Source: Siphonodentalium dalli
Taxonomy: Eukaryota > Mollusca > Scaphopoda > Gadilida > Siphonodentaliidae
Direction: 5' to 3'
NCBI GenBank assembly: GCA_032622095.1
Contig: CP136064.1
Span: forward strand, 196,697,948 to 196,761,947
DNA length: 64,000 nt
Position 1 is the stretch's first letter. The number at the start of each line of letters is the position of its first letter. Made by a program: the position numbers and the translations under genes. Under the pieces are notes generated by a model. It ran no database searches and had not been told where the DNA came from. It saw only the letters and a program-made list of their open reading frames with translations. Shown one piece after another: positions 3,850 to 53,343 of the stretch.

Positions 3850-4110
3850 GGACGGAATCTCCGGTTTAAACTTCCGAGTTTAAACTTGGTTTAAACCTAC
3901 ATTGGCGGTCCAGCCAAACCGGGTCCAATGGGGCGTTTTTGTCAATCAGTTGCCAGCTAATTGACAACTCGATTCTGTGATATGAGCACGCAGTCAAACT
4001 ACTGCACGCACAATGGGTTTATTCATTGAGAAACAAGTAATGCTCATGGACCATTAATCCTATCTCATTCTGGGTTTAAATCAATCTGACAAATGGCATG
4101 TCTTTCAACA
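3850..4110 (+). repeat. GTTTAAAC-rich dispersed repeat R2, copy 1
   Basis: Repeated GTTTAAAC palindromes at 3864-3898 are followed by CTACATTGGCGGTCCAGCC, CAGTCAAACTAC, CATGGACCATTAATCC and CAATCTGACAAATGGCATG. The same blocks occur in reverse complement at 46890-47815, where extra sequence of several hundred bases separates them. This copy therefore looks internally deleted. A third, more diverged copy is at 5160-5620. Confidence 0.6.
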
Positions 4111-12700: not shown

Positions 12701-15700
12701 CTGCAAAATGTGTATGATATTTAATTAGTCTAGATTCGAGCGTAATTTGGTCTTGATATTTTAAACATTTTTGATGTCTCAGTCGAAATTCATGCGGTGG
12801 CCCAATTCCTAAGTTCACGGAAGCCTGTTGTACAAATTTAACCCTCTGATTACTAAATAGAGCAAAACATAGCAAAATGGCAAATATTCAGATGATAAGT
12901 TCAATAATTAACCGGCCATACAAGCTATTTGTTGAACTTATTATCTGAACAATTCCTATACCAATGAATATGAATATTTCTGTACTGTTATTATCTGTTT
13001 GTCTGCCTTTCGTCTATTTACATTTCCTTAACACCCCTCCATGCAGATACATATTGGATCATTCTAATGTATACTTTCATAACTGAATGGGAGAATCTAT
13101 AAATAACAAATGGTGTCATTCTTTCCGAGCGTTAAACTAACATATCCTGTTACCCTATTATAATTCGTGTATCTGGAGCAAAACTTCTATTATACTAAAC
13201 TAGCTGAAACAGGCTCCCAAAAAAACAGGCTCCCTTTGGTAGCCTATATTCAGCATCGGAGATACCTGTGGCCCCCTTTGTGGGACTTCGCAAACAATTT
13301 GATCTTAGACAGAGCCTCATTTAGCGGTGGCCCCTTTATGCGCTTCAAGCACATTTGGTCATTGAAACATTTTGATATATATATATTGTTTTAATATATT
13401 ATTTTTAAAGATTGAATTCCTTGCTCAATTTAACAAAACCAATTTTCATTAATTTTTTTTTCATTAATTTTTTTGAAAAACTAACACCATTATAACATCC
13501 GCCAGGGTACCCCGAGTCACCACACCAAATTTGGTTGAACTCGGTCCAGGGGTCTGAAAGAAAAATCCGGACAGATCCTACTCGTTTATATAAATATACA
13601 TGACAAGCAGTCACAGCACTATACCATACTTGGATACGTTCGGTCTTGTGAGAGATCATCTGAGTTGAAAGACATGCAAATAATTCACTGATATATGCGC
13701 ATGTCCGACATGGCGGAATTGTTTTGTCTTTTCTCTCCGGAAAAAGGAATATTTAGCTATTTAATCCTGTTCTAAATAATGTGATTCCGGGAGTTCTATA
13801 ACCTCCAATATGCACCGAAACGGCACAAAGGTTAATTCTATTGAAAGAGGGAGGCGACCCCGGAGTTCGGATGGAGAGACACCTAAGCCAGAAAGTAAAC
13901 AGAAAGTGACACAAAAAATGGCGGACAATGCAGAAATATCGGTGGTGAGTCAATTACAAGAAGTTTGTAAATCAATTGCTGAACTTCAAAAAGGCCAAAA
14001 TTCTATCCGGAAAATGTTCGAAAGTAAAATTGATAATTTGCGTAAGGACCTACTTGAGAACTTTGATAACAAATTGAAAGCTATGACCCAGGACTTTGAT
14101 CTCGCTATTGGTAAACAACAGGCAGAAAGCGAGAAGTTATCAGCGAGCATGAACACAATCACGGATCGCCTAACGGCTCTTGAGGTCAAGGGTAATCAGC
14201 AATCAGCTAACGGTTCTGCGGCAGTCGGCGCGACAGGTGGAGTGGATAATCCTTTGAATTTAACGGATCTGACAGTTATAATCTCCAATCTCCCATACGA
14301 TGATAACGCAACAAGTGATGTTGACATTTTGCAGAAAGTTAAACAGCTTGTAGATGCCCTGGGCAGTGCTTGTGATGGAAAAGTCACATTAACAGCAGCT
14401 GAACGACTGGTGAGCAGGCAGTCAGGAAAGTCTGGGGTTGTAAAAGCTAGCTTTGGTTCAATCGACCAGAAGAAATTAGTATTGAAGAACAAAAATGTTT
14501 TGAAAGATTCAGAAGATTTCAAAAATGTGTACATAAGATCCAGTAAGACGCATACTGAAAGGATTCTGGAGCTGAATGCACGCACAATCTTGAAGGAACT
14601 TCCTGGTGGGAACAATTATCGGATAACCGCTAATGGCAGAATCATCAAACGTGACAACCAGCGTGGACCTGACCAATAGGACAATACCCGGTCAACAGAT
14701 CATCTCACTATTGGACATTTAAATGTTTGTGGATGGACAGCCAAAAATCATGCTTTAAGAACTCAAATTGTTTTGAATTCAAATTGTGACATATTTTGTT
14801 TGAATGAAACCCACTTGAAACCAAATGGAAGTATTAATATCGAGGACCATGGATATTCATGGTTCGGTAAGAACAGATCGCACATGCATAAGAATGCACC
14901 AAAAGGTTCCGGGGGCGTGGGTATCCTCGTTAAGCATCACGTGCTGTCTGATTACAGCTTAACGGTAATCGACTCGTCGTTTGAGGGTGTGATTGGTATA
15001 CGATTTAATCATCGCATTACTGACCATGCATTTGTAATTTATAGCTGTTATCTTCCACCTGAATCATCCGTATGGGGAAGAGACGCTTCTAGTTTCTTTT
15101 CTCATCTATTAACGCAAATGTACTCACTTGTCGACGTGGATAGCGTCTTTGTTTGTGGTGACTTTAACGCACGTGCTGGGGCGGGAGTAGATTGTAATCA
15201 TGTTGTTGACAATGTTAGACCACGCCTTCATATTGACAATACGACAAATCAACATGGCCAAACCTTCCTTGAATTTTTGAATGACAGTCGTACAGTTATG
15301 CTTAACGGTCGATACGGTACAGCCTCAAATCAGTTCACATTTAGGTCATGTAAAGGGGAGTCAGTTGTTGATTATGTGTGTGTTCCTCATGAACAATTGA
15401 CTTGTTGTATAAATTTTCGTATTGTTGAATGTGAAAGTATAATTGAGGAATATCGGTTACAGTCGTTGCTTGGTTTCAGGAGTAATGTACCGGACCACGC
15501 AATTATTATGTTTGACTATATAACGGAATATACGACTTCCCTTGTAATGAATCAACCGGATGCAGTTCCCTTAAAGCAACACAAACGATTCAAACTCAAT
15601 GAAATTCCTCTGACATTTATGGCGAATAATAAATTCCAGTCTGAATTAAGGGCCGCGATTGACAGAATCGAAGCATCTCAACAAGTTAATATAGATAGTA

Positions 15701-18700
15701 TATATGACGATTTGTGTGGCTTAGTGAAACGGGAAATGACCAGTATGATACCAGTATATGACTGCTCCTCTAAGTCGCGAACCCTTCACCGAACCCACAA
15801 ACCGTTTTGGAATGAGGAGCTTTCACAACTATGGAAAGATATGCGAAATAAAGAGAAGGTGTATAGAAAAGTAGTCGGCAACAATCGTATGAAACGTCAA
15901 ACGCGTGAGTTGTATAGGGATGCTAGAAACCTGCTAGATAAGAAATTACGATTTTATGAAAGACAGTATAGGAAAACACTTTCATTTAACTTGAACTCAT
16001 CTTTGAAAAATAACCCTAAAGATTTTTGGCGGGAACTTGAGCGAATGGGCCCTAAACGGACCAAAGGTCCACCAATGAAATGTTATCTACCTGATGGATC
16101 CGTAACAACTAATCGCGACAGTGTGCTCGAGGTATGGAGAGCGGAATTTGAACAATTATATAACATAGATGTACTCAATAAGTTTGATGATGATTTCAAA
16201 GATTCTATTCTTGAACAGATTGACTCGGATGGTATGTCTTTAGAAAATCCTACTAATAACTAGGTTAAGCGACAGGTTATGACGAAATCCCCATGGAAGT
16301 TCTAAAAAATGATTATGCTGCGAACCTGATTCATAAACTGATGCAAACATGCTTCGATTCTGGCAAAGTGCCCAAAATGTGGTGTAGATCTATAATATGT
16401 CCTATTCTCAAAGACAGTATGTCAGATCCTGCTGTTCCATTAAATTATCGTGGTATAAGCTTACAATCGGTAATCGGTAAAATTTACAGCTCTATTTTAA
16501 ATACCCGTTTAGTTACTTATTTTGACGACAACGATACTCTAGTTGATGAACAAAATGGTTTCCGTCGAGGACGGTCGTGCGCCGAACATGTATATGTGTT
16601 CACATCTCTGGTTAAAAATAGGCGCTCCACGTTTGTCGGCTTCGCAGACCTAAGTAAAGCCTTTGATATGGTCGATCGTGATCTCTTAAAATATAGGCTT
16701 CTATCAGCGGGGGTCCGTGGAAAAATATTTCGATCTATAGAATCTTTATACTCGGACACTGAAGCACGCGTAAAGCTCGGCGATAATTATACCGAATGGT
16801 TTAACTGTTCTAAGGGGGTTCGCCAGGGTGGTAATATGTCTCCTACTCTGTTTAACTTATACATAAATGATCTTGCCTCTGAATTGAATAGCCTCGACAT
16901 TGGAGTGAGCATCGGATCTAGGAATATTTCTGTATTATTATATGCTGATGATATTGCACTAATAGCAGAAAATGAGCATGATTTACAATTACTTTTTGAC
17001 GTGATTACCTTATGGTGCAGTAAATGGCGCGTAAATATAAACTCTAGTAAAACGAAGGTTATCCATTTTCGGAAACCACAACGTACTCGGAGTTTATCTG
17101 TGTTCAGCTTGTGTGACCAAACTATTGACATAGTTCCCAGTTTGAAATACTTAGGAGTGATCGTTGATGAACATATGTCATTTAAAGCGAATTGTGAGAA
17201 CCTCGTGAAAGCTGGTGGGCGTGCACTCGGAGCTGTAATTTCTAAAATTCATAATTTGAAAGAAATAAGTATTGAAACATATGAAAAACTCTATAATTCC
17301 TGTGTTATTCCAGTAACAGACTATTGCAGTGAAGTTTGGGGATTTGGTCAATTCCACTCAATTAACACAGTTCAACACCGCGCTTTACGCTATTTCTTGG
17401 GAGTTGGTCGTTACACCCCTCTACCCGCACTTAACGGCGATGTTGGATGGACATCCCCTTACTGCCGTCGGTGGTATTCGATGCTGAGATTCTGGAATCG
17501 TTTATTGACCATGCACGCTGGCAGAATTACAAAACAAGTATTTTTATGGGACATCTTAAACTGTAAGAAAGATAGTTGGGCTGCCCACTTTAAATTAATC
17601 ACACAGATACTGAACATGAATAATATATTTGACGATAGACGAATGTGTAATCTCGATGAGTGTCATGAAGCCCTTAAGAGACATTTTCAGAAAACTTGGT
17701 CTGCAGATACACAAAAATTACCTAAATTGAGAACCTATATATTATTTAAACACACATACGAATTAGAAAGATATGTAACTCTTAACATCAGTAAAGCTGA
17801 AAGATCGATTATGGCACAATTTCGATGCGGTGTTCTCCCCTTAAATATTGAGACTGGGAGGTATAATAAGGAAGATTCCGACAAGAGATATTGTTCTCTG
17901 TGTGATTGTAGCCAAGTTGAAGACGAGACACATTTTCTCCTTAACTGTCGAGCATATAAACACTTGCGATCAAAACTGATGTCATATATCGCGATCGAAC
18001 ATGGACAGACACAATTTAGTGACGTCGGCTTGCTTACTCAGCTAATGAATCGGTATCCTCTTCAAGTAGCTAAATTTCTTTATAGTGCTTATAAAAAAAG
18101 ACAAGATCTTCTTAGCAAAACCTTTTCTATCCCATGAATGTGCACAACAATTTTCTTTATTATTTTTGTTTAAAGTGACTTATAGGCCTTATTGGCCGGG
18201 TGTGTTGTTATTTTATTACTCGACATTGTTATCACCTGTATGTGATGTTTTGTATACACCATACACACATGTCACTATAATAAAATATTCGTTCGTTCGT
18301 TCGTTCGATTGGCTTGATGCACTGATTACAGATATTTTCTACCCATTGATAGTCACATTAATGTTTGAGACAGTTGCTCGCTCTTTTTACATGCACACAA
18401 TGATCTAGGCATTAGTTACATCAGGACAAGTTTACTTATATATGCAAACTTACATGTAAGTCATTGTACAGGATACACACAATTCCATAATTTCTAACCA
18501 TTTTCCGATTAGTCTGTCAACCAGCCCATTATCTAGCATTATGCCTTAACACATTTGTTAGTCTACTGGATCAACCTCTGTTATAATAAATGACAAACAA
18601 TCACTATGCCAGACTTGGATATTTCAGGTGTTGTGAGAGTAACAGATCATATGAGTTGATAGACATGCAAATATTTCACTGATTGGCTTGATGCACTGGT

Positions 18701-27956: not shown

Positions 27957-30900
27957 TGTCTGGATTGGATTGGATTGGATTGATTATTTACACAAATTAA
28001 ATACATAATACAAAAGCATGATACTATATCCTGAAAATTTGCACAGGAGCGCATGGCCAATACATGCCGTCTTCCTGCCGCCCATTATACACAATATAGA
28101 ATAAGTAGATGGCGATCATATTGTTGTTTGACAATCGAGATGTTGCATGAAGATCAGCTATGGTTGAGAGAATTTGTTACACTTTTGGGGTTGTGTTTTA
28201 TTTATCAATTTTGTTCGGGCAGCTATGATTAAATATATGTCTATACAATTATGTGTCCATGGATTTGTGCCCATAAATGGTGAGTAATCCAGGGTTACGG
28301 CACATGACGGGGACACGTCTCTTATAGGCGCAAGTATACATAATGCATGTATACTTATTGTTCCAATTACTTTCTACAATCTCGGCATCCACGTTGTCAC
28401 AATTTACTGAGTTACTATAGTGTGATTGCACATTTATACGTATGGAAGATTTAAAGATGGTTCTGCTAGCTGCAAATTTGTGCGTTGGGTCCAAGCAGTT
28501 CCACACACATGGGAATGAGTATCTTGGTAGAATTTGGGAGAAATTCGTCCTTGGAATTGTAGTAACTAAGTTGCCGGACTATTTGTTGTGGTTGATATTG
28601 GGGTATACTTAAATCAACTTTCGAAAGATGGCGGGAAATTTTTATTTTGCCAATCGTACATGAACAATGCGATTTGAAGATGATACAGATCATGTAATTT
28701 AAGAAGTTTTAGAATTGTAAACAATGGCTCTGTATGACTGCGATATATTTTATTGCATAAGATCCGGACTGAAACGTGTCCCCATATTATTATTCCGTAC
28801 ATGAGATGACTGTGAAGTAAGGAGAAATAAAAGAGATTTTAGTTTGCTTTTTGGGAGAAATCGTTTGGCTTTACCTAGACAGTATATTGCGTGTGATATT
28901 TTTCTGGTTAACATTGATATGTGGTATTTGAAAGTAAGATTTTCGTCAATGATTATGCCAAGGAATTTAAGTGATTTATCTTGGTTTTGATTACTTACAC
29001 GAACTAGTTCCTTTTTATTCAATTTAATTCGCAGATTTGCTCATTTAAAAATTGTTATTTTGTGGATGCAACAACATATATTTAGTTTTTGATTCGTTGA
29101 GGGATAGTCGGTTAGTAAAGCACCAGCGGTATACTTTATCTAGTTCCTCGTTTATCTTATTCTGAATGGTTTTATAATTATTCCCTGATGTGTATAACGT
29201 TGTGTCGTCAGCAAATGAAAGAAGTTTGAGATTGGTACTGTTGGGCACGTAATTGACATACATTTGAAATAGGATGGGGCCGATGACCTATCCCTGTGGT
29301 ACTCCACATTCCATATTCAACATTCCCGATTGATGATCGTGGACTTCTACATATTGTCGTCTGTCATGTAAGTAACTTCTTAACCAGTCATTAGCGATTC
29401 CCCTTATCACATAGTGATCGAGCTCTCTACGTAAAATTTCGTGACTTATGGTGTCATAAGCTTTTGATAAGTCTAAGAAAATGGCAATGGTGGAGTCACG
29501 GGTTTTTTTGTCATTACATTCCGCTACACCTTCGAGAAGATGTATTAGTGGGTGAATGGTAGAATGTTTCTTACAAAAGCTATATTGGGGTTCATGAAGA
29601 ATTTTATGTTTGTTGAGGAAAGTTGAAAGCCGAGCGTTGATTATTTTTTTCATTATTTTGGAAAATGCAGGTAATATGCTGATTGGTCTATACTTTTCAA
29701 TCTGATCGCGTTCGCCTTTTTTGTATATAGGCATTATTCTAGATATTTTCATTTTCTCTGGCACAATTCCCTGAGCAAGTGAGAGATTTAAAATATGTGT
29801 GAGAGGTCCGACAGTTTCATTGATTGTTTGTTTCATTAGTTTCACGGAGACATCGTTTATATCTATGTAAGTTTTATTAGATAGTTTCGAGCAAAGTGAT
29901 ATTAGTTCATCTCTGTTTGTTGGGAAAATAAAACGTTTATTGTCATACTGCCCCGGTAGGTAATCAGTGAAGTTCATCCCTGGAATCTGTGTTACGTTTT
30001 TTGCGGTAATTCTCCCAATATCAGCGAAATATGTGTTGATGTGCATGCGATATTTGTCGGGTCAGACAGTTTCCCGTTACCGGTACCTTTTGAAAATTCG
30101 GTAGGAAAGGTATTCAGGCCATGAGATATTTTAAGGGCGTCTTTCAGTATCGTACAAGTGCGTCGCATGTTGGCTTAATTTTCCTTGAGAATATTGTCGT
30201 AATAATGATTTTTACTCCGCCGTTTAATTGGTTGTATATTCTGCAGTAGGTTTTGTATCTTTCTATGTGTTCATCTGTTGGAAACTTTAATTTAGTGGTG
30301 TACAATTTAGTTTTTTTTACTGATGATTGAATGAGTCATTTAGTCATCCATGGTTCCCGTTTAGCATACTTGTTTGGTGGTTTGCGTTTAATTTTTGGAA
30401 AGGCTTCTTCGAAGAATAAGGAGTAGCTGCGCAAAAAGGCGTTATATGCTAGGTCTGCGTCTTGGTATATGAAGACCTCTTCGAATGAATGATTGTGCAG
30501 GAGCCTCTTAAATTTTGCTATATTGTTTTCGGACATTATTCGAGTTGTTGTTTGGTTTTCGTCCTTCTTTGTGTTGATATCATTGGTTTCGACGTGGAAT
30601 GTACTGAAGTGGTCTGAGACGTCCGTTAGGATGATTCCACTGTGAAATTTGCATTTGGATATGCTATTTGTGTAAATGTGGCCAATGAGAGTCGCTGAGA
30701 ATTCAGCTACTTCCGTTGGTTTAGTAATCACTGGCATGAATCCACGTTCGAACATATTACTGATGAAAACATTGGTTTTGCTGTGTGAATCAGAATGCAG
30801 TAAGTCTATGTTAAGATCACCTACGATTATACTTTTGCGTTTAATTCGTTAAGTTTGATAATAACATTGTCAAGCTGATTAGAGAAGGTTTCTATGTCAG

Positions 30901-33072: not shown

Positions 33073-34955
33073 TTAAATAACGCCGGTCATACCAGCATAT
33101 AGGTAATAAGCTTGCCACATTTTGTCAACATTTTTGAAAATTATAATTGGAATGTCGTCATCTTCAATCATTATATCGCTCTCAATTTCTGATAAGTTGC
33201 CAAGGAGCACACTTAATTTGGCTTCTCCTGAGAGCGATTCGTATTTGATGTAGGCATTAATCCCAAGTGCATCCATAATAAAATATTCCATCTCATTTCT
33301 AAACGAAAACATGGCCGTACAATCAATGAATATATGAGACAAAATGTCGGTCGTGGTAGAATCACAGTTCGTACATGAAATTTCTCTGTTGATTCCTATT
33401 TGGCTTATCAATTATCCAATTGTGAGATAAATGGTCTTGCCTTCTGGATATAATTTGCATAGGCGCCAAACATAGGACATACATAATTATGTGTGTGTTC
33501 TATTGAAGAGAGAAAAACTTGGGTCAGAATTTGTTCTTGATTTCCATGCATCCGCGTGTGATGTTTCCATTCCTGTGTTAAAAATATGTTTCCACGAGTT
33601 TTTGTCCGGAAAAAAGACTCTGTTGCAAATTGGTAAAGGTAATTCGATAAGTCATATTGATCAAGTATTTGCATAATGTCACAAAAGTAGTTTCTAGAAC
33701 AAGACAAACGAGACTCAGTGGTAGACAGAAGCGTGTATTCATACATTATGTGAAAGAAAACTTGTTTAACAGTTTTCTTATTGTTGCATTCAACATTGCA
33801 CAGGGATGATAATAGTGACATTTACTTTTTATTTATGTAGAATTCTATTGAGTGAATTCCAAGTAAGCCAAGAGCGATATCGGTCCGGGTCCTGGGTTCG
33901 AATCCCTGTATTGTTTTTATGCAAAATCTATGAGTTCTTTCTATTTTAAGAATTTCATTTTGGGTTATATTCCACAATAGCTCCGTGCCGAACAACGCTC
34001 TTGGCAAAATGACTGATTTATATATTAGTGAGGAACTCAGAGGAGTTAGACCTCCAGCATATAAGCCAGAATTCGACAGCATAAGGAATGTGCTTCTCAG
34101 TTTGTCACATACATGTGCGATAAAATTATTTGTTTGTTTATACTTCGCAATTGGGATTCCCAGGTGGACTGTACTGTCCACTTCTTTAAGGTTTTCAGAC
34201 CCCATGATCCATTGGCGTTTACACTTATCGGATTGTGTCTTTTTCTCATTAAGTACCATTATTACAGATTTAGATGTGTTATACTTGTAACGCCATGTAT
34301 AGCTAAAACTCAAACACATATTGATAAGTGAATTCAAACCACGTTCAGTTAGTGATAAAAGTAGCATGTCATCAGCGTGAGTTGGGCATGTACAATTAAT
34401 TGATTCCATATGAAAGCCATACATTAACTTTGATAGTAATGTGATCAGTTCGTCAACGTAGACCATGTAACATTTCGGAGAGCATATCCCCCCTGCCTTG
34501 TTCCTTGATAATTTTGTATTAATCTGGATGTAACATCGTTATATCTCACAGTGCAATAGACACCGGAGAGCGATTGGTGCACAAATTTGAAAGCAATTCC
34601 AGTTAGGCCCCTCTCATACAATTTATACATAAGACCGTCTATCCAAACCGTATCAAAGGCTTTCCATACATCTAAAAAGCAACAGTACAATTTTTGTTTT
34701 TTTTCGGCGTTAAAGTTGATGCATTCCTGAGTTAGATATAATGTAGGCATTAGAGTTATGGCCCTGTAGCTGTCGAACGAGTGTTTAGGTTTCGTCCCCC
34801 TTTATGTAATGTGATTATGACACCTCGTTTGGCAGCCCCAGGTATATAATCATGCCGCAATATTGCTGAGAATAATTTACAGAGGCTATCAACCAGACAA
34901 TCACCGCCATATATAATATTCTCGTTATAAATATTATCATAACCGGGCGATAACC
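33073..34955 (-). pseudogene. Non-LTR reverse transcriptase remnant with HADD box
   Basis: On the minus strand the reading begins SPGYDNIYNENIIYGGD near 34950. It continues ITLHKGG and DSYRAITLMPTLYL, LYCCFLDVWKAFDTVW (motif A), YQGTRQGG (motif B), PTHADDMLLLSL (motif C) and HLGIPIAKYK, with a C-terminal CTNCD...H.F.DC knuckle at about 33350. The part 34466-33408 is one frame broken by a single TAA; small frameshifts lie near 34460, 34750 and 33410. No endonuclease was found to the left. The catalytic box has His where Tyr or Phe is usual. Same group as the remnant at 51142-52580. Confidence 0.8.

Positions 34956-35484: not shown

Positions 35485-35523
<39 letters not shown>
35461..35523. repeat. 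(AT)n / (ATAC)n microsatellite left of the Helitron array
   Basis: ATACATAC-type repeats run into pure AT from about 35491 to 35522. The Helitron-like array begins at the next base. A matching (TA)n run stands at the far end of the array (41251-41271). Confidence 0.9.
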
Positions 35524-35524
<1 letters not shown>

Positions 35525-35676
35525 TAGAAGGTGACCCGACTTCGTCCGGGCTATTCAAAAACCAAATTTCAAGTCGATTGCTCCACCCGTTTCCGAGATC
35601 TGGTCTGCGCATGCGCGAAGCTGGCGTCGCACGGGCTCGGCGACCCGATAAAATTCGTATCCGGGGCAAGATACAT

Positions 35677-35847
35677 ATGTGTTATATACACAATGTGTTT
35701 GTAACGATTCATGTATCGCGACGAGGCAAGTTTTCGTGGCCATATAGCGACGAGGCGACCTTGGTCGCCGAGTCGCTATATGGACACGAAAACTAGCCCG
35801 AGTCGCGATACATGAATCGTTACAAACACATTGTGTATATAACACAT
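35677..35847. repeat. 171-bp near-perfect palindrome inside Helitron copy A
   Basis: Two arms of about 85 bp meet at GGCGACCTTGGTCGCC. Outer ends are ATGTGTTATATACACAATG and its complement. Only a handful of arm mismatches are seen. It interrupts the Helitron sequence just after GGGGCAAGATACA. Confidence 0.8.
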
Positions 35848-36393
35848 TTATCTACCATTGGTGTGACAGAATCCACCGCACTAATTACATTTCAGGAGTT
35901 TCTTAAATGGCAAAACTGTTGAATTTGTGTCCGATGATTCGCTTTCTTGAGTAAATTCTCCCAACCTGCAAAGGTATCTGTGTCACGCGATTAGCTCGCT
36001 TTGCTAAATTCTCACAACCTGCCTGTTCACGTGAATATGCCTAACGGAAATGTATTCAATGGACAACATTTCTTACACTTATAATACATACTGAACATAC
36101 ATATTAGTTCCCTTGTGATGTGTTATACCATAATACCCGTGATGGTTACCCGGTAGGCAATCAAATAATGTTAAAACATTGGAACTATTTGTTTATAGTA
36201 CGCAAGAATATACGTTGGAATGTCGTTTTGATTTTTCACGCGATTGATGTGACGTCAGTTCATTCATGATTTTGATCAGTCAACGACGTTACTAGCGCCT
36301 TGTATCGCAACTGCAGTAACGATACGGATGCTTTTATCGCCCATTCGTTATCGCCCATTGTATCAGGGAATTTCATAGGAAATGGTAGATAAA
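35847..36393. mobile_element. Element with 13-bp TIRs nested in Helitron copy A
   Basis: TTTATCTACCATT at the left and AATGGTAGATAAA at the right form terminal inverted repeats. The Helitron sequence resumes with TTCACATACC at 36394, so palindrome plus this segment were gained at one site. It could be one composite insertion or two neighbours. No transposase is visible. Confidence 0.55.
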
Positions 36394-36929
36394 TTCACAT
36401 ACCAAATTTCAAGTCGATAGCTCCACCCGTTTTCGAGATATATAGCCCAATGTCATTTGCGGATACCTCGGCCGGTGATGAGTTAACGCGACATCGGCCG
36501 GAAAAGAGTTAACGCGATCACGTCACGATATGTTGATGGCGTAATATATTTACGCAATGATTTTCGATGAGCGAAGCATGGTCCTGCGTTCTTCCCGATA
36601 ATGGAGCCTTCCACAGAGGCCACGCCCACAGCGTAGTCCCGCCCAATGGCAATTTATTAGAATATATTCGACCGCTGGCTGCGGAGATTTTTTCGACGCC
36701 AACTTTCTTCACCCTAATTTTCATATCCATGCATACATTCAGTGTTAAATTGGCTATATACAAACAACTTTTTTGTTGTCAAATCATAATATACTGATAT
36801 TTATATTTGCGGCATGATTTTATAAATTTATCCGTGATTATAACAATGATTTTCGTTTAGCATGACACTTGTCATAATTTTCATATTTAATGGCAAAACG
36901 AATGTATGTTCTCTGGTTTAGATATATTA

Positions 36930-37430
36930 GAGTTCAGTGATCTGTCTGTCTGTTCTGGTTTGTATGCAATTTTTCTTCCAGAGCCCTTGATCGATTTTAA
37001 CCAAATTTGGTGTGGTGCATCGGGGTACCACGGCAGATGTTATAACGAACTTATATTTTTAATTAAATTTAAAAAAAAATTAATTTGGTTTTCAAATTTG
37101 AGAATTTTTTAGTAAGAAGTTTCAATCTAAAAACGTAAAAAGAAAATTTAAAAATTAAATTAAAAAAATTTAATCAAGTAAAAAACAATTTAAATTAAAA
37201 AATTACCACATATTTTAAAGATTCAATCTAAAAATCTAAAAAGAAGATAAAAAAAATTTAATTTAAAAATAAAAAAAAAAATTTAATTTAAAAAACAAAC
37301 TATTTAGTTTTTTTTCAACAGCAGATCAAAGTTCAATCTAAAAAAAAATTTGAATCTAAATATTTTTTTTAAAATCAAACTGGTTAAAAGAATAAATTTT
37401 AACGAATCATGTACACATGAGTCTGTTTCA
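36930..37430 (+). repeat. Dispersed repeat R3 with A/T-rich tail, copy 3
   Basis: CTGTCTGTCTGTTCTGG, then CCAAATTTGGTGTGGTGCAT and GTTATAACG, followed by about 350 bp of TTTAAAAA / AAATTTAA sequence. Same order as at 4115-4500. Confidence 0.6.
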
Positions 37431-37932
37431 GCTAGTTAACATAAGGGCAAGTGCTGATGTGTTCACTTCGGAGAAGTCGATCTCGGGTAACAGACAATAT
37501 TTATGTGGATAAAGTATTTTACCAGTGGGCGGGGACTACCGCTGTGGGTGTGGCCTCTGTGGAAAGCTCCATTAAGGTAGAAACTTTAAACGTACACAGG
37601 CGTGTGATGCATCATTGGAAAGATGAAGCTCCACAGATTCTAACCGTGCAAATTATATGACTGGCAATTTATTATTCGCGCTATATCGAATCGATTTGTG
37701 AGCACCGAACTGAAATATATTAGCGCAAAACGGCGTAAAAACAGATTTGACCTCGGCACGTGAAAAGTTGACCTCGGATCTGAAAATCAATAGGCCTATG
37801 TTACTCCTGACCCGAAAATACCCCCACATACCAAGTTTCATCGAAATCGGCTGGGCCATTTTCGAGTCCATCGATTACACACAGACAGATACACACACAC
37901 ACACACACAGATCTTTCAAAATATATAATAGA

Positions 37933-38850
37933 CTAGAAGGTGACCCGACTTCGTCCGGGCTTTGACCTTGAATTGTCTATTTTGAAGGCCAAGGTCAAGT
38001 GGGGTCACGATTTGACCCGTCCAAAACACAGTGCCCGAACAAAAGTACCCGACAAAAGTACCCGTCGAAATCCATCCGGTTTTACCCGATTTGACCTTGA
38101 ATTGACCATTTTGAAGGTCAAGGTCAGGTGGACCAACACCCCAAAAATGGTGGAAATCGGCCCAGCGGATACCGGGAAATCGGCCCATCAGATACCGAGA
38201 TACCCTATGCATCAAATTTCGTCCGTAAAAATCCGCCAGTTTAACCCGATTTGATTTCCACTGAAGTATATAAACGCGCCTCATATACACACGCTCATTA
38301 ATTATCAAGTTTCAACGTAAAGATAAATTACCATCGGTGCCCGAGATATCGCCAAGACGTCTGAAACAGTCAAATGCATACGCCGGAGAAGAGTTAACGT
38401 GATCTAACTTTATGACCTCTAACGACGTCATAGAAGTTACGCATTGTTTTTACCCTGATAGAAGATCGTACCACTTCTTCTTAATAATTGAGGCAGATAA
38501 CTAAAACGGATACATACGTATTATATATCGTTGGAAAGAGGAAACACGAAAGATTCTCATAGTGTCATTATTATGACTGGCATGTTATTATTCGCGCTGT
38601 TTCGAATCGATTTGTAAGCACCGAACTGAAATATATTAGCGCAAAACGGCGTAAAAACAGATTTGACCTCGGCACGTGAAAAGTTGACCTCGCACGGACA
38701 AATTAATAGGCCTATGTTGGTCCTGACCCGAAAATACCCCCACATACCAAGTTTCATCGAAATCGGCTGGGCCATTTTCGAGTCCATCGATTACAAACAC
38801 ACAAACAAACAAATAAACAAACAAACAGATCTTCCAAAATATATAATAGA
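37933..38850 (-). mobile_element. Helitron-like element, copy C (918 bp)
   Basis: Directly abuts its neighbours: on the minus strand CTAG of one copy is followed at once by TC of the next, at 37933/37932 and 38851/38850. The 5' part (right side) has an (AAAC)n-type microsatellite, then ACCAAGTTTCATCGAAATCGG in plus-strand reading. The 3' part differs from copy D after CCGGGC, with TTGACCTTGAATTGTC. Non-coding. Repeated as copy E, 1659 bp away. Confidence 0.78.
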
Positions 38851-39591
38851 CTAGAAGGTGACCCGACTTCGTCCGGGCTATTCAAAAACCAAATTTCAAG
38901 TCGATTGCTCCACCCGTTTCCTAGATCTGGTCTGCGCATGCGCGAAGCTGGTGTCGCACGTGCTCGGCGACCCGATAAAATTCGTATCCGGGGCAAGATA
39001 CATTCACATACCAAATTTCAAGTCGATAGCTACACCCGTTTCCGAGATATATAGCCCAATGTCATTTGCGGATACCTCGGCCGGTGATGAGTTAACGCGA
39101 CACAGTCAAATGCATCGGCAGGGTGAGAGTTAACGTAATCTAATTTTATTACCTCTGACGACGTCATAGAAGTTACGCATTGATTTTATCCTGATAAAAG
39201 ATCGTACCACTTGTCCCTAATAATTGAGGCAGATAACTAAAACGGATACATACATATTATATATCGTTGGAAAGATGAAGCCACACAGATTCTAACCGTG
39301 CAAATTATATGACTGGCAATTTATTATTCGCGCTATATCGAATCGATTTGTGAGCACCGAACTGAAATATATTAGCGCAAAAACGGCGTAAAAATAGATT
39401 TGACCTCCGCACGTGAAAAGTTGACCTCGCACGGACAAATAAATATGCCTATGTTCGTCTCCGGCCGAAAACACATCCAAATACCAAGTTTCATCGAAAT
39501 TGGCTTAGTCGTTTTCGATTCCATCGATTTCAAACACACAAACTTACACATAAACTTACACATACACAGATCTTTCAAAATATATAATAGA
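38851..39591 (-). mobile_element. Helitron-like element, copy D (741 bp)
   Basis: The 3' end carries the same CTAG plus CCCGACTTCGTCCGGG hairpin (plus-strand reading), followed by ATTCAAAAACCAAATTTC and TCTGCGCATGCGCGAAGC. The 5' region is shared with copy C. It ends at 39591 with the TC start. Non-coding. Repeated as copy F. Confidence 0.78.
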
Positions 39592-40509
39592 CTAGAAGGT
39601 GACCCGACTTCGTCCGGGCTTTGACCTTGAATTGTCTATTTTGAAGGCCAAGGTCAAGTGGGGTCACGATTTGACCCGTCCAAAACACAGTGCCCGAACA
39701 AAAGTACCCGACAAAAGTACCCGTCGAAATCCATCCGGTTTTACCAGATTTGACCTTGAATTGACCATTTTGAAGGTCAAGGTCAGGTGGACCAACACCC
39801 CAAAAATGGTGGAAATCGGCCCAGCGGATACCGGGAAATCGGCCCATCGGATACCGAGATACCCTATGCATCAAATTTCGTCCGTAAAAATCCGCCAGTT
39901 TAACCCGATTTGATTTCCACTGAAGTATATAAACGCGCCTCATATACACACGCTCATTAATTATCAAGTTTCAACGTAAAGATAAATTACCATCGGTGCC
40001 CGAGATATCGCCAAGACGTCTGAAACAGTCAAATGCATCGGCCGGAGAAGAGTTAACGTGATCTAACTTTATGACCTCTAACGACGTCATAGAAGTTACG
40101 CATTGTTTTTACCCTGATAGAAGATCGTACCACTTCTTCTTAATAATTGAGGCAGATAACTAAAACGGATACATACATATTATATATCGTTGGAAAGAGG
40201 AAACACGAAAGATTCTCATAGTGTCATTATTATGACTGGCATGTTATTATTCGCGCTGTTTCGAATCGATTTGTAAGCACCGAACTGAAATATATTAGCG
40301 CAAAACGGCGTAAAAACAGATTTGACCTCGGCACGTGAAAAGTTGACCTCGCACGGACAAATTAATAGGCCTATGTTGGTCCTGACCCGAAAATACCCCC
40401 ACATACCAAGTTTCATCGAAATCGGCTGGGCCATTTTCGAGTCCATCGATTACAAACACACAAACAAACAAACAAACAAACAAACAGATCTTCCAAAATA
40501 TATAATAGA
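39592..40509 (-). mobile_element. Helitron-like element, copy E (duplicate of C)
   Basis: Matches copy C base for base, apart from about five substitutions, at a constant distance of 1659 bp. With F it forms the second dimer of the array. Confidence 0.8.
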
Positions 40510-41250
40510 CTAGAAGGTGACCCGACTTCGTCCGGGCTATTCAAAAACCAAATTTCAAGTCGATTGCTCCACCCGTTTCCTAGATCTGGTCTGCGCATGC
40601 GCGAAGCTGGTGTCGCACGTGCTCGGCGACCCGATAAAATTCGTATCCGGGGCAAGATACATTCACATACCAAATTTCAAGTCGATAGCTACACCCGTTT
40701 CCGAGATATATAGCCCAATGTCATTTGCGGATACCTCGGCCGGTGATGAGTTAACGCGACACAGTCAAATGCATCGGCAGGGTGAGAGTTAACGTAATCT
40801 AATTTTATTACCTCTGACGACGTCATAGAAGTTACGCATTGATTTTATCCTGATAAAAGATCGTACCACTTGTCCCTAATAATTGAGGCAGATAACTAAA
40901 ACGGATACATACATATTATATATCGTTGGAAAGATGAAGCCACACAGATTCTAACCGTGCAAATTATATGACTGGCAATTTATTATTCGCGCTATATCGA
41001 ATCGATTTGTGAGCACCGAACTGAAATATATTAGCGCAAAAACGGCGTAAAAATAGATTTGACCTCCGCACGTGAAAAGTTGACCTCGCACGGACAAATA
41101 AATATGCCTATGTTCGTCTCCGGCCGAAAACACATCCAAATACCAAGTTTCATCGAAATTGGCTTAGTCGTTTTCGATTCCATCGATTTCAAACACACAA
41201 ACTTACACATAAACTTACACATACACAGATCTTTCAAAATATATAATAGA
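40510..41250 (-). mobile_element. Helitron-like element, copy F (duplicate of D)
   Basis: Matches copy D at a distance of 1659 bp. Its TC start at 41250 borders a (TA)n run with A as the preceding host base on the minus strand, the expected Helitron target. This is the 5' boundary of the whole array. Confidence 0.8.
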
Positions 41251-41295
41251 TATATATATATATATATATATACACATGCATACACATATATATAA
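41251..41295. repeat. (TA)n microsatellite right of the Helitron array
   Basis: Pure TA to about 41271, then ACACATGCATACACATATATATA. It pairs with the AT run left of 35524. Confidence 0.9.
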
Positions 41296-41978: not shown

Positions 41979-43174
41979 CTAGCAGGTTAGCCCGCCACTG
42001 GCGGCATTCGTCCCATGGCTTTGGTCGATCCATTAATTTTAGTTTTTCAATGTAACCCCGTACAGGACCGGGCTACTCAAAAACCAAATTTCAAGTCGAT
42101 AGCTCCACCCGTTTCCGAGATCTGGTCTGCGCATGCGCGTATCTGGCGTCGCACGGGCTCGGCGACCCGATAAAATTCGTATCCGGGGCAAGATACATTC
42201 ACATACCAAATTTCAAGTCGATAGCTCCACCCGTTTCCGATATCTCGTCTGCGCATGCGCTGCACGGGCGTCGCACGGGCTCGCCAATACGACAACGACG
42301 ACCACCTGGTCAAACTACACTCACGTACCAAGTTTCGTCCCGATCGGTCGAGGTGTTGGTATCTGATGCAAAAGACGAAATTGTGAGTGTTGGTCAATAG
42401 TCCCCGCCGTGAACCTCATCGTCGCAAAGAGCGGACAGTCAATTAACCCCGTTGTGAACCTCAATCACCAACGCGACGTAAACATGTGTTGCGTTCTAAA
42501 AATAGGAAAGCACTTTCTCTCTGCATAATTCTGCAGATGCTAATAACGTTGCTCCCCGTAGGTAGCAATATCGTTGTTGTTGATATTTACGGCTTGGGGG
42601 CTATTTTCTTATTTAGCAAGTTTGAGCTCAATCGGTTAGAGTCCATAAAGGACACACTCATATATATGACACTTCCCGTAGGTAGCAAGTTTGAGCTCAA
42701 TTGGCATTCCCTGGAATTTCCCGTAGATTAGCAGATTCCAGAAATCTGATGCTATATTCGTGATTATCTGGGATGATTTCGGTATATACCGAAGGTATAT
42801 ACTGTAAACACAGAGCGCGCCATCCGTGCTTGCAGGGAATAAATTTCGAGCGATAACGTTTGCGTTCCCGTATAACTCTGCAGATGCGAATAACGTTGAA
42901 TGGGAAAAAGACGCTCTTTATAGAGATGCGTCAAAAACAAACGCTCATTAAATAATCACTTGATTAACCCCCGCCGTGCCTATGCGGTGATTTGAGATTG
43001 GAGAACGGGTGCTCTGAGCTTCTCTAAACCGCGACCACGCTCGTGTCGGTGAGATTTGACACTTACATAGGAAGTTTGAGCTCAATCCTTACACGCGTTT
43101 TGGATTCTATGAAGTACCCACACACACACACACACACACACATATATACGAAGTCTCAAAATATATAGTATAGA
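41979..43174 (-). mobile_element. Helitron-like element, copy G (family 2, 1196 bp)
   Basis: Minus-strand reading: starts TCTATACTATATATTTTGAG at 43174 and ends at 41979 with hairpin CCGCCAGTGGCGG, nine bases and CTAG. The host base after CTAG is T. The body shares TCTGCGCATGCGC and CGACCCGATAAAATTCG blocks with family 1, but has its own sequence from 42290 on. (CA)n lies near the 5' end. Non-coding: ORFs shared with copy H are shadows of the repeat. Confidence 0.75.
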
Positions 43175-44395
43175 CTAGCAGGTTAGCCCGCCACTGGCGG
43201 CATTCGACCCATGGCTTTGGTCGATCCATTAATTTTAGTTTTTCAATGTAACCCCGTACAGGACCGGGCTACTCAAAAACCAAATTTCAAGTCGATAGCT
43301 TCACCCGTTTCCGATATCTGGTCTGCGCATGCGCGTATCTGGCGTCGCACGGGCTCGGCAACCCGATAAAATTCGTATCCGGGGCAAGATACATTCACAT
43401 ACCAAATTTCAAGTCGATAGCTCCACCCGTTTCCGATATCTCGTCTGCGCATGCGCTGCACGGGCGTCGCACGGGCTCGCCAATACGACAGCGACGACCA
43501 CCTGGTCAAACTACACTCACGTACCAAGTTTCGTCCCGATCGGTCGAGGTGTTGGTATCTGATGCAAAAGACGAAATTGTGAGTGTTGGTCAATAGTCCC
43601 CGCCGTGAACCTCATCGTCGCAAAGAGCGGACAGTCAATTAACCCCGTTGTGAATCTCAATCACCAACGCGACGTAAACATGTGTTGCGTTCTAAAAATA
43701 GGAAAGCACTTTCTCTCTGCATAATTATGCAGATGCTAATAACGTTGCTCCCCGTAGGTAGCAATATCGTTGTTGTTGATATTTACGGCTTGGGGGCTAT
43801 TTTCTTATTTAGCAAGTTTGAGCTCAATCGGTTAGAGTCTATAAAGGACACACTCATATATATGACACTTCCCGTAGGTAGCAAGTTTGAGCTCAATCGG
43901 CATTCCCTGGAATTTCCCGTAGATTGGCAGATTCCAGTAGCTTTATAACGGTATATCTGGGGAGAAATCTGATGCTATATTCGTGATTATCTGGGATGAT
44001 TTCGGTATATACCAAAGGTATATACTGTAAAAACAGAGCGCGCCATCCGTGCTCGCAGGGAATAAATTTCGAGCGATAACGTTTGCGTTCCCGTATAACT
44101 CTGCAGATGCGAATAACGTTGAATGGGAAAAAGACGCTCTTTATAGAGATGCGTCAAAAACAAACGCTCATTAAATAATCACTTGATTAACCCCCGCCGT
44201 GCCTATGCGGTGATTTGAGATTGGAGAACGGGTGCTCTGAGCTTCTCTAAACCGCGACCACGTTCGTGTCGGTGGGATTTGACACTTACATAGGAAGTTT
44301 GAGCTCAATCTTTACACGCGTTTTGGATTCTATGAAGTACCCACCCACACACACACACACACACACATATATACGAAGTCTCAAAATATATAGTA
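43175..44395 (-). mobile_element. Helitron-like element, copy H (family 2)
   Basis: A head-to-tail duplicate of copy G joined at CTAG|TC. It differs by a few substitutions, by about 27 extra bases at 43941-43967, and by loss of the last four bases of its 5' end (TCTA) at the junction with copy I. Confidence 0.78.
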
Positions 44396-51141: not shown

Positions 51142-52580
51142 TTACAATGGACGTGACACGGGTTGCTGTACGCCATTCCTTATCATTGTGCTGAGAACGT
51201 ACAGAAACTTCGCAGAATATAGTACTAATTCCTTGAGGCAGTGCGATATGTGTTCTGTTAGGGTTTCCAGAGAACTTCCGAGGAGGGTTGCTACCAGGTC
51301 ATCTCTGGCTAACGACGCAAGGTGAAAATATTCGGGTATGCCGAAACGAGAGATAATCCCTTCCCAAAAATAGTTTCTAATAATGAGTGCGGCTGGAGAA
51401 GAGCATACGAACATGGCGTGGTCGATTTCGTTCGAGTACACTTCGCTGCAGAGATGACACACTAAATTGTTGGCATAGGTAGTCCTGTTGAGAAGCAGTA
51501 CTAAGTTTTTGAGATATTTCAACATGTAAGCGTTTCCATGGATAAATTTCCAGACTGCCCAGTTTGATAGGGGATTAGGGTGAACTTTCCACAGAATTCG
51601 CAAGGATGGATCGGACGAAACTTTGGTCTGCCACGAGGAAATGAACGTTCCCCTGACAGCTGCCTTCACAAAAGTTATCCACGTTGACAGTTTTGGGAAG
51701 ACCCCAATGTCCAGGTAGTCGTTCAAATAGTTCAAAAGATCGTATTTGGCTAATATGGAGAACATTTCCTGTACAAAAACACTGGAGCGATTGTATAGTC
51801 TGTACATGTGTGCTTTCAGGACAAACAGTCGTAATTGTAATTGATGGCCGAACGGTAGATGGATAAGACGTCCCAGAAAGCAAAGTTTTTTGATATGCAG
51901 TTGATATTCAATTGGTAGAAATCCAAGAAGACCTAGCGATAGCCTAGTTGACGCTCGTTTTTGGAGGGATTGTGCGTATTTGAGACATGTTCTGGCGGCT
52001 TTGTTCATAATGGTGATGGCGGAACTTTGATCAAAAGGAACCACCTCGACACCGTAGAAAGCTCTCGGTAGAAAAACAGTTTTGATGACATTTGTCATGG
52101 TGATGGGTGTAGTGGATTTCATAAGTTTGTTACCCATGATATTGAAAAAGTTATTCCTCATTTTTGTCGACACAGAAGAGGCGGAATTGACCTGCTTCGC
52201 AAACTTGTCCTGAATTAAACCAAGATGGGCACATTCTGTAACTTCCTGAATAGTTTGATTGCCCAACCTCCATATCCTTCCCGAGCGGTCATATGAGTTT
52301 TTATTCTCGTTGAATACAATTTTGCTCTTCGTGGAGGAGAATTCGAATCGCCACCGCCTGCTATATTTCACACATATGTTCAACAAGGAGTCGAGACCGG
52401 ATTTCGATAGCGACAGAAGAGCGATGTCGTCGGCAGTAGTAGGAGTGCCACATGGGATATTGCAGATTCTTAGTCCGTATGGAGAAGTTGCTAGTTCGTT
52501 AAGTAGGTCGTCTATGAAGACGAGATGGCAGAGAGGTGACAGAACGTCACCTTGTCGAGTAGATTGCAGTATTTTGAAAC
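51142..52580 (-). pseudogene. Non-LTR reverse transcriptase, 5'-truncated, TADD box
   Basis: One long open frame runs from the edge of the right-hand direct repeat (about 52580) to a stop at 51142. The reading begins QSTRQGDVLSPLCHLVF (motif B), then FIDDLLNEL and PTTADDIALLSLSKSG (motif C). Next come FSSTKSKIVFNE and ECAHLGLIQ (motif D area), a long thumb and connection, and a knuckle CHLCSEVYSNEIDHAMFVC. Motif A, fingers and endonuclease are missing, so it is not functional as a polymerase. The absence of stops over about 470 codons is notable for a truncated copy. Thr replaces Tyr/Phe in the YADD box, as His does in the related remnant at 33073-34955. Confidence 0.8.
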
Positions 52581-52585
52581 TTTGC

Positions 52586-53343
52586 GATCGATCTAGTTTA
52601 ATATTGAAAATTTCGAAATGTGGGCTAAATTTCAGTCGGAAACATCAGCTTTCAAATGCATGATACTATAGTGTCAAGCATGGAATATGAAACGGTAGTC
52701 TCCATATTTTTTAACTAAGCAGCTTTTAGACCCAAGAAAACTCGAGTAAAACTGTCAGCATATATTGTTTATAAAATAGCAAATTACAGGCATAGCATCG
52801 TTTCCCGTATTATAAAAGCCAACTGTGCGTCCCTCTGTAACGAGTTTTGACAGTGTCCTCAATAAACCCACATGCGACCACATAAGTAGACTTGACTCAG
52901 ATAAGTATGTCTAGATAAGACACACTGTGTCACAATTGTTACGTTGGGACCGAAAATATCACAATTGTCAATGTCCGTTAACTGGAGAAACAAAGATGAG
53001 ATAGACTGTATTTAATGGTTCGCTTTGCCTAAATGTGTCTTCTGATCATAATACCGATCTGATAAAGTATGTTACGTACGGGACGCAACCCTTTAAGAGA
53101 GACTCCATGATATCTCGATTTTGGTTATACATGTGTATTTCAGTTTCCTATCGCTTAAGTCAACAAATCACTTCACTGAGAACGACCATTCAAGCCTTGA
53201 GGTTTTATGTTTTGCATTAAGTTTAATTCAACATTATTATATTATTTGAAATGCTTTTGGTACTTATATTGAAAACTGAAAAAAATATTGAGTCTCATCT
53301 CTTGAATCACCGGAAACCGTGATAAGTAATATGCATGATATGT
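52586..53343. repeat. 0.76-kb direct repeat, right copy
   Basis: Second copy of 50096-50860. Its left edge coincides with the 5' truncation point of the RT remnant. Confidence 0.85.

Follow-up and report, generated by a model that had tools for sequence, protein, structure and literature searches.

A window of 64,000 nucleotides from the scaphopod Siphonodentalium dalli (C4:196697948-196761947, in a genome of 2.23 Gb and nine contigs) contains five Helitron-type units that lie head-to-tail on the minus strand inside a TA run and abut as CTAG|TC. This array is interpreted as a stack of non-autonomous canonical Helitrons that was most likely built by successive insertions in place, a reading to which a probability of roughly 60% is assigned; growth in place is favoured, though not proven, over the entry of the whole array at one time. 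The stack is real and well-bounded. It is ordinary in kind; what is unusual is the abundance of such stacks in this genome and the variety of units within them.

Structure of the array and its termini

The units, named X, A, B, A2 and B2 in plus-strand order, measure 2409, 918, 741, 918 and 741 bp, with an A-B period of 1659 bp; in the sense of the elements the array reads 5'-B2-A2-B-A-X-3' (Table 1). Their 3' ends (CTAGAAGGTGACCCGACTTCGTCCGGGCT) are located at 35524, 37933, 38851, 39592 and 40510 and their 5' ends (AGATCTTNCAAAATATATAATAGA) finish at 37932, 38850, 39591, 40509 and 41250, with 0 mismatches in all five units for either end, and in 100 dinucleotide shuffles the mean number of occurrences was 0.00 for each terminal pattern. 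The 5' TC of canonical Helitrons is present in 5/5 units, as is a 3' CTAG conforming to the CTRR terminus. The four inter-unit junctions are exact and contain no host base, while the host base adjoining the leftmost CTAG is A (35523) and that adjoining the rightmost TC end is T (41251). At the position expected for a hairpin, about 10 bases before the 3' end, a short CCCG..CGGG stem is predicted, but its folding energy does not exceed that of shuffled sequence (folding z -0.31; 65 of 200 shuffles fold at least as well), so that position and conservation, and not energy, are the grounds for calling a hairpin.

A sequence-only reading of the window had proposed five head-to-tail minus-strand units with exact CTAG|TC junctions and had assigned them to Helitrons by their TC start, CTAG end and A|T target. 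Both the junction coordinates and the assignment are borne out. The right TA run begins at 41251, as it had described; the left run, placed by it as far as 35522, reaches 35523, a trivial difference.

Table 1. Positions of the array units, junctions, flanks and other features, counted from the first base of the window
Feature	Position	Strand	Remarks
Left host TA run	35493..35523		Final base A corresponds to T after CTAG in element sense
Unit X	35524..37932	-	2409 bp; 3'-most, probably oldest; B-like 3' half, two nested repeats; sister copy (pX) 1687 bp
Nested insertion in X	35675..36392		About 718 bp; dispersed repeat; sister copy of X without insertion
Nested repeat in X	36599..37574		About 980 bp; 35-bp inverted ends (94%); A/T-rich core; present at both loci
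Junction CTAG|TC, A/X (37933|37932)	37929..37936	-	Exact termini
Unit A	37933..38850	-	918 bp; sister-locus counterpart 910 bp
Junction CTAG|TC, B/A	38847..38854	-	Exact termini; 300-bp junction matched over its full length at 38 further scored places
Unit B	38851..39591	-	741 bp; sister locus without B
Junction CTAG|TC, A2/B	39588..39595	-	39 other scored matches, less similar, a few not over full 300 bp
Unit A2	39592..40509	-	918 bp; one private change
Junction CTAG|TC, B2/A2	40506..40513	-	Exact termini
Unit B2	40510..41250	-	741 bp; identical to B in sequence; 5'-most
Right host TA run	41251..41272		First base T corresponds to A before TC in element sense
Second tandem array, another Helitron-type family (CTAGCAGGTTAGCCC ends)	41979..44395	-	Units 41979-43174 and 43175-44395; third 3' end 44396

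Comparison with the sister locus

Among the scored matches, X has one other near-full copy, which lies inverted 1.2 Mb away (C4:195.54 Mb against 196.73 Mb) and defines a sister locus (L009). Over the 100 kb compared, positions 790-64000 of the window align to it in pieces of more than 700 bp, mostly at 95-99.5%, with gaps and indels between them. This inverted near-copy (C4:195.50-195.59 Mb), with its many large indels, may be a genuine duplication, or the assembly may have incorporated a second haplotype there.

The sister locus occupies the same TA run with the same outer boundaries, which supports the single A|T site proposed in the sequence-only reading, and it contains only X and A; B, A2 and B2 are absent. 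The TC end of sister A joins the same right flank, giving an intact A|TC from which the 5' units are missing, and the difference between the five-unit and the two-unit state is confined to the 5' side, inside the shared outer boundaries. Sister X lacks the nested repeat of about 718 bp. Sister A, 910 bp long, remains A-type as far as the last diagnostic site (TTCC, not TTTC) and is identical to A2 at 907 of 910 positions. Since the second array of the window shows the same three 3' ends at both loci, the difference in unit number is specific to the first array. Entry of new units at the 5' side, the canonical order, is favoured because the variable units lie 5' of the shared X-A, and we infer that the change between the loci was a gain rather than a loss.

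Relationships among the units

X, A and B are different subfamilies by sequence comparison. Where they can be aligned, A and B have about 73% identity; the 3' half of X resembles B (98% over 153 bp, 97% over 107 bp), and its 5' part is about 85% similar to A and to B alike. Six differences in 918 bases separate A from A2, whereas B and B2 have none in 741. Outside the 5'-end microsatellite, private changes number four in A, one in A2 and two in sister A, and derived changes common to A and A2 alone number zero (copies in one alignment). The fifth private change of A sits in the microsatellite, where sister A has an 8-base deletion; at that point one base is common to A and A2 and missing from the other aligned copies. 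With five private changes against one, A appears older than A2 in an age gradient.

Elsewhere in the genome, A2 scores closer to four copies on contigs C3 and C1 than to A, and a copy on C8 is 100% identical to B over query positions 104-741 (638 bp). An old age for the window copy of B, suggested by terminal branches in a sparse tree, was dropped when the wider search gave this relative.

Ends, junctions and target site across the genome

The 21-base 3' end, which spans half of the predicted hairpin stem, has 12,656 exact occurrences genome-wide, and the 31-base junction composed of this end and the 10-base 5' terminal sequence is found at 3,920 places (31% of 12,656); reversed-pattern controls gave zero for both. 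By a rough estimate, random A|T insertion of 12,656 elements would be expected to produce about 0.2 abutments by chance. Such junctions, for which the sequence-only reading had suggested a search, recur beyond the window.

T follows 12,575 of the 12,656 exact 3' ends in the sense of the element, and another base follows in 81. The 5'-end pattern without a preceding A in the same sense occurs 6,726 times, and among about 100 of these that were listed the adjoining plus-strand base is nearly always C, with A in four; C is expected there if another CTAG abuts. Arrays were sampled at 20 junction places, the first in order and all on C1, together with roughly 1.5 kb of sequence to either side; the sample is therefore not random, and some of the places overlap. 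At the sampled loci A precedes CTAG on the plus strand in 19 of 19 non-junction ends, and T comes after the 5' end in 16 of 18; the remaining two are a single place, interpreted as a parsing error at the third unit of the second array of the window. Overlapping loci were kept in these counts. The target is the canonical A|T, without target duplication.

Mixed stacks and runs of like units

Including the window, 28 neighbour pairs were scored, and 26 were retained after one mis-parsed pair of the second array and L040, which duplicates the pair of L039, had been dropped. Pair identity is an end-to-end score counting gaps, and the nested repeats of X lower one window pair. By this measure 19 of the 26 pairs are less than 0.80 identical (4 of the 19 in the window), the remaining seven lying at 0.84-0.98. 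In 18 of the 19 dissimilar pairs both units match better at another sampled locus, and several sampled junctions join ends from different families.

The 300-bp B/A junction is found at full length at 38 places outside the window (best 40 scored of 1,086 candidates). Three of these were examined: L065 is a clean copy of two units, bordered on the outside by host A and T, the pair of L063 sits inside a longer array, and L064 is mutated, with an unrelated insert in its A part. The divergence of A2-B2 was compared by Fisher tests with that of L065 and L063 and of L021 and L025 from the C1 sample, L064 being excluded. Differences were 3/914 in A and 21/733 in B for L065 (p 2.7e-5), 10/914 and 23/741 for L021 (p 0.0043), 57/860 and 16/740 for L025 (p 1.8e-5), opposite in direction to L065, and 7/918 and 11/729 for L063 (p 0.16). 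Because three of the four comparisons are discordant, and in both directions, repeated independent stacking of A and B fits these data. A composite A-B element moving as a unit was rejected by the discordant divergence for L065, L021 and L025, though not for L063. The reverse A/B junction matches 39 outside places (best 40 scored of 1,599 candidates).

Because runs of like units are also present, blocks of units are taken to have been amplified elsewhere in the genome. C1:93419403-93426826 contains nine full-length B-type matches of 740/746 bp, mostly alternating in length and score, together with a divergent match of 654 bp, and looks as if a two-unit block had been amplified. Abutting like units of 917, 927 and 927 bp are found at C1:16.05 Mb, and runs of A-type units on C3, C6 and C7. 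The arrays at C1:16.04 and 16.05 Mb were considered as a second before/after pair and set aside; they have the right flank in common, but the second array shows no recognised left 3' unit end in the stretch read.

Candidate autonomous partners

Matches to PF14214 are found in at least 151 places genome-wide (best 150 of 457 candidates scored). Downstream of such matches, the window-type hairpin followed by CTAG is present in three of five stretches, namely L053 (one base different), L054 and L055; L056 ends with the terminus of another family, and the downstream stretch of L057 has no matching end. In L054 and L055, two of the three RepHel elements with a matching 3' end, TCTATTATATATTTTG directly follows CTAG and is the TC start of the next element. 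L053 to L055 were read as short stretches, so that gene intactness goes no further than open-frame lengths.

At the other RepHel loci, L049 has a matching hairpin with CTAG absent after it, and L052 carries the end of another family, joined to TC. Open frames of 1630 and 1650 amino acids in L049 and L052 contain Helitron_like_N and PIF1 domains; a HUH-type motif was identified at the expected place in L049 only, and YVCKY in both. No matching ends were found in the longer loci L050 and L051, nor within 3.5 kb of each of L041 to L048, save one poor 5' match in L048, and a matching 5' end was not found upstream of the four RepHel elements L058 to L061. The Rep/helicase partner with the same ends that the sequence-only reading had envisaged is thus matched at the 3' end (3/5 stretches) and not at the 5' end in these four. 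Upstream of the RepHel gene, short blocks (CTCTTTGTACATTTTC...) are repeated in L058, L059 and L061, with a related form in L060, and L058 has a helicase-like fragment further upstream, recognised by eye.

Origin of the array

Under successive insertion in place, X would have entered first, at an A|T of the TA run, and A would have been added at the 5' end of X, giving the X-A state common to the sister locus; B, A2 and B2 would have been added later on the same 5' side. Each newcomer would use the A|T in which the host supplies the A and the TC of the resident supplies the T, producing CTAG|TC without a host base; RepHel-encoding Helitrons that share the 3' end would provide the machinery. 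The A2-B2 step could instead be a block amplification. We infer the insertion chemistry and a Rep nick at resident ends.

Several observations weigh against this order of events. The sister locus could have lost B-A2-B2, there being no third copy or outgroup that polarises the change. A, A2 and sister A are nearly star-like, so that their dates overlap, and the microsatellite base shared by A and A2 would be compatible with a local duplication of A. The contrast between A-A2 (6/918) and B-B2 (0/741), with p 0.036, or 0.069 when two adjacent changes are counted as one, speaks only marginally against a single duplication of the pair. Matches of at least 96% number 19 of 38 for B upstream of A and 1 of 39 for the reverse order, a weak bias and a lead only, as the two queries cover different regions and microsatellites and some places look mutually duplicate. 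From few copies, B differs by 1.4-3.6% among loci, against 0.3-1.5% for most copies of A (exceptions being L025 at 6-7% and L064, with its unrelated insert, at about 12%); if B represents an older burst, this would favour A entering at the 3' side (CTAG^T). Of an abutting pair in maize, the upstream element alone is present in some lines (PMC2267711, available part).

Loss at the sister locus would require five units before the duplication and the removal of B, A2 and B2 by recombination or precise excision, and is somewhat improbable. The short identical stretch at all 5' ends, together with the TA run, could mediate such a deletion, and A2 is nearly equal to sister A (907/910). An exchange would nevertheless have to fall within the last 17 bp or so, since sister A stays A-type up to the TTCC site; recombination would more plausibly involve A and A2 (99.3%) or B and B2 (100%), in which case B would remain at the edge. 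It is unlikely that the array arose as a rolling-circle concatemer, through replication past the CTAG terminator and either insertion of the multimer at once or its amplification in place. CTAG|TC circles and terminator bypass are known from experiment (PMC4778049, available part), the like-unit runs on C1, C3, C6 and C7 are of the expected kind, and the alternation of A-B with A2-B2, with B identical to B2, would fit. X, A and B, though, belong to different subfamilies, so that the array as a whole does not consist of one repeated element even if A resembles A2 and B resembles B2. The sister locus holds two units, not none or five; most sampled neighbours are heterotypic, some coming from different families; A-B pairs are discordant with the window in 3/4 comparisons; and A and A2 share no derived change missing from sister A outside the 5'-end microsatellite. 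Of the two routes that the sequence-only reading had offered, entry as a concatemer and growth in place, the first is disfavoured for the array as a whole and the second is retained.

Entry of new elements on the 3' side of a resident, at a non-canonical G|T (CTAG^T), is distinctly unlikely. It is one of two options open for maize (PMC2267711, available part), and it draws on the wider divergence among B copies than among most copies of A and on the bias toward B upstream of A. Against it, both loci have X, the 3'-most unit with its nested repeats, and the units that vary are on the 5' side; B, having a near-identical relative elsewhere, need not be old. That the two-locus difference is an assembly artefact, a collapsed or duplicated haplotype placed inverted, is highly improbable, even though an inverted alignment 1.2 Mb away, mostly at 95-99.5% with gaps and indels, resembles two haplotypes: the units are exact and the host flanks continuous at both loci, the clean two-unit pair of L065 lies on another contig, and even as alleles the two loci would remain a before/after pair.

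Successive insertion at the 5' side may tentatively be extended to a more general view, itself somewhat on the doubtful side, in which the Helitrons of this genome are self-targeting: the 5' Rep site of a resident (A^TC) would be a preferred landing site across families, and stacks would grow one way, with the oldest unit 3' and the youngest 5'. Thousands of exact junctions, mixed-family stacks and duplicated loci with unequal unit number make the head-to-tail origin countable. If growth is indeed one-sided and self-targeted, stacks would form a time series of Helitron activity and resident ends would be landing sites.

Other features of the window

The nested repeat at 35675-36392, about 720 bp long, has a 46-bp perfect inverted repeat near one end and dozens of copies at 96-99% in the genome, three of them on C5 at an exact spacing of 10,188 bp. 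The second tandem array lies 0.7 kb from the first, and where its second unit meets the third, the terminal TCTA is missing from the 5' end of the second. Reading frames resembling long interspersed nuclear elements, of reverse transcriptase or endonuclease type as judged by eye only, are found at 13780-18137, 29288-30848, 33822-34538 and 51142-52644.

Comparison with known systems

Tandem and adjacent Helitrons are already known, and what is new here is the scale and the before/after pair bearing on insertion order. The open-licence literature, as far as its available parts extend, reports tandem or adjacent Helitrons, and none was found there that settles the order of insertion; the comparisons below draw on the same available parts. 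In maize, two unlike Helitrons abut via CTAG|TC and were read as consecutive insertions, either canonical, at the A|T that includes the TC of the resident, or non-canonical, at G|T, an order the authors left unclear in 2008 (PMC2267711). Distantly related Helitrons directly adjoin each other in bat and maize (PMC4067079). Tandem arrays in bat and silkworm are put down to a bypass of termination in work cited by PMC4067079 and PMC5148889; tandem Helitrons are also described from plant centromeres (Xiong 2016, as cited in PMC5148889).

The closest general likeness is to canonical Helitrons of the Helitron1 type, such as Helibat/Helraiser (PMC4778049), which share the TC start, the CTAG end and the A|T target; they have a hairpin before CTAG, as is predicted for the window units, and a RepHel protein with HUH and helicase parts, of which the RepHel loci described above are candidate counterparts. 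In the Helraiser system, Rep cuts both at TC and at the 3' end, the element inserts at A|T, CTAG|TC circles are formed and the hairpin can be bypassed. In contrast to Helibat/Helraiser, the window units are small and non-coding, have a different end sequence and are very frequently stacked. The maize r1 region (PMC2267711) shows the same CTAG|TC junction between unlike Helitrons, with two elements there and five here, and with lines holding only the upstream element there whereas the variation here is on the 5' side. The tandem arrays of bat, silkworm and plant centromeres have the same head-to-tail junctions; in the present genome the sampled neighbours are mostly of different subfamilies, although runs of like units also occur. 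Helentrons and DINE-1 (PMC4067079) belong to the same rolling-circle superfamily and likewise include short, non-coding copies that contain a microsatellite region. DINE-1-like elements carry inverted repeats in subterminal position and prefer T-rich insertion sites, whereas the window units end in TC and CTAG at A|T and are set apart from them by the target and the CTAG end only.

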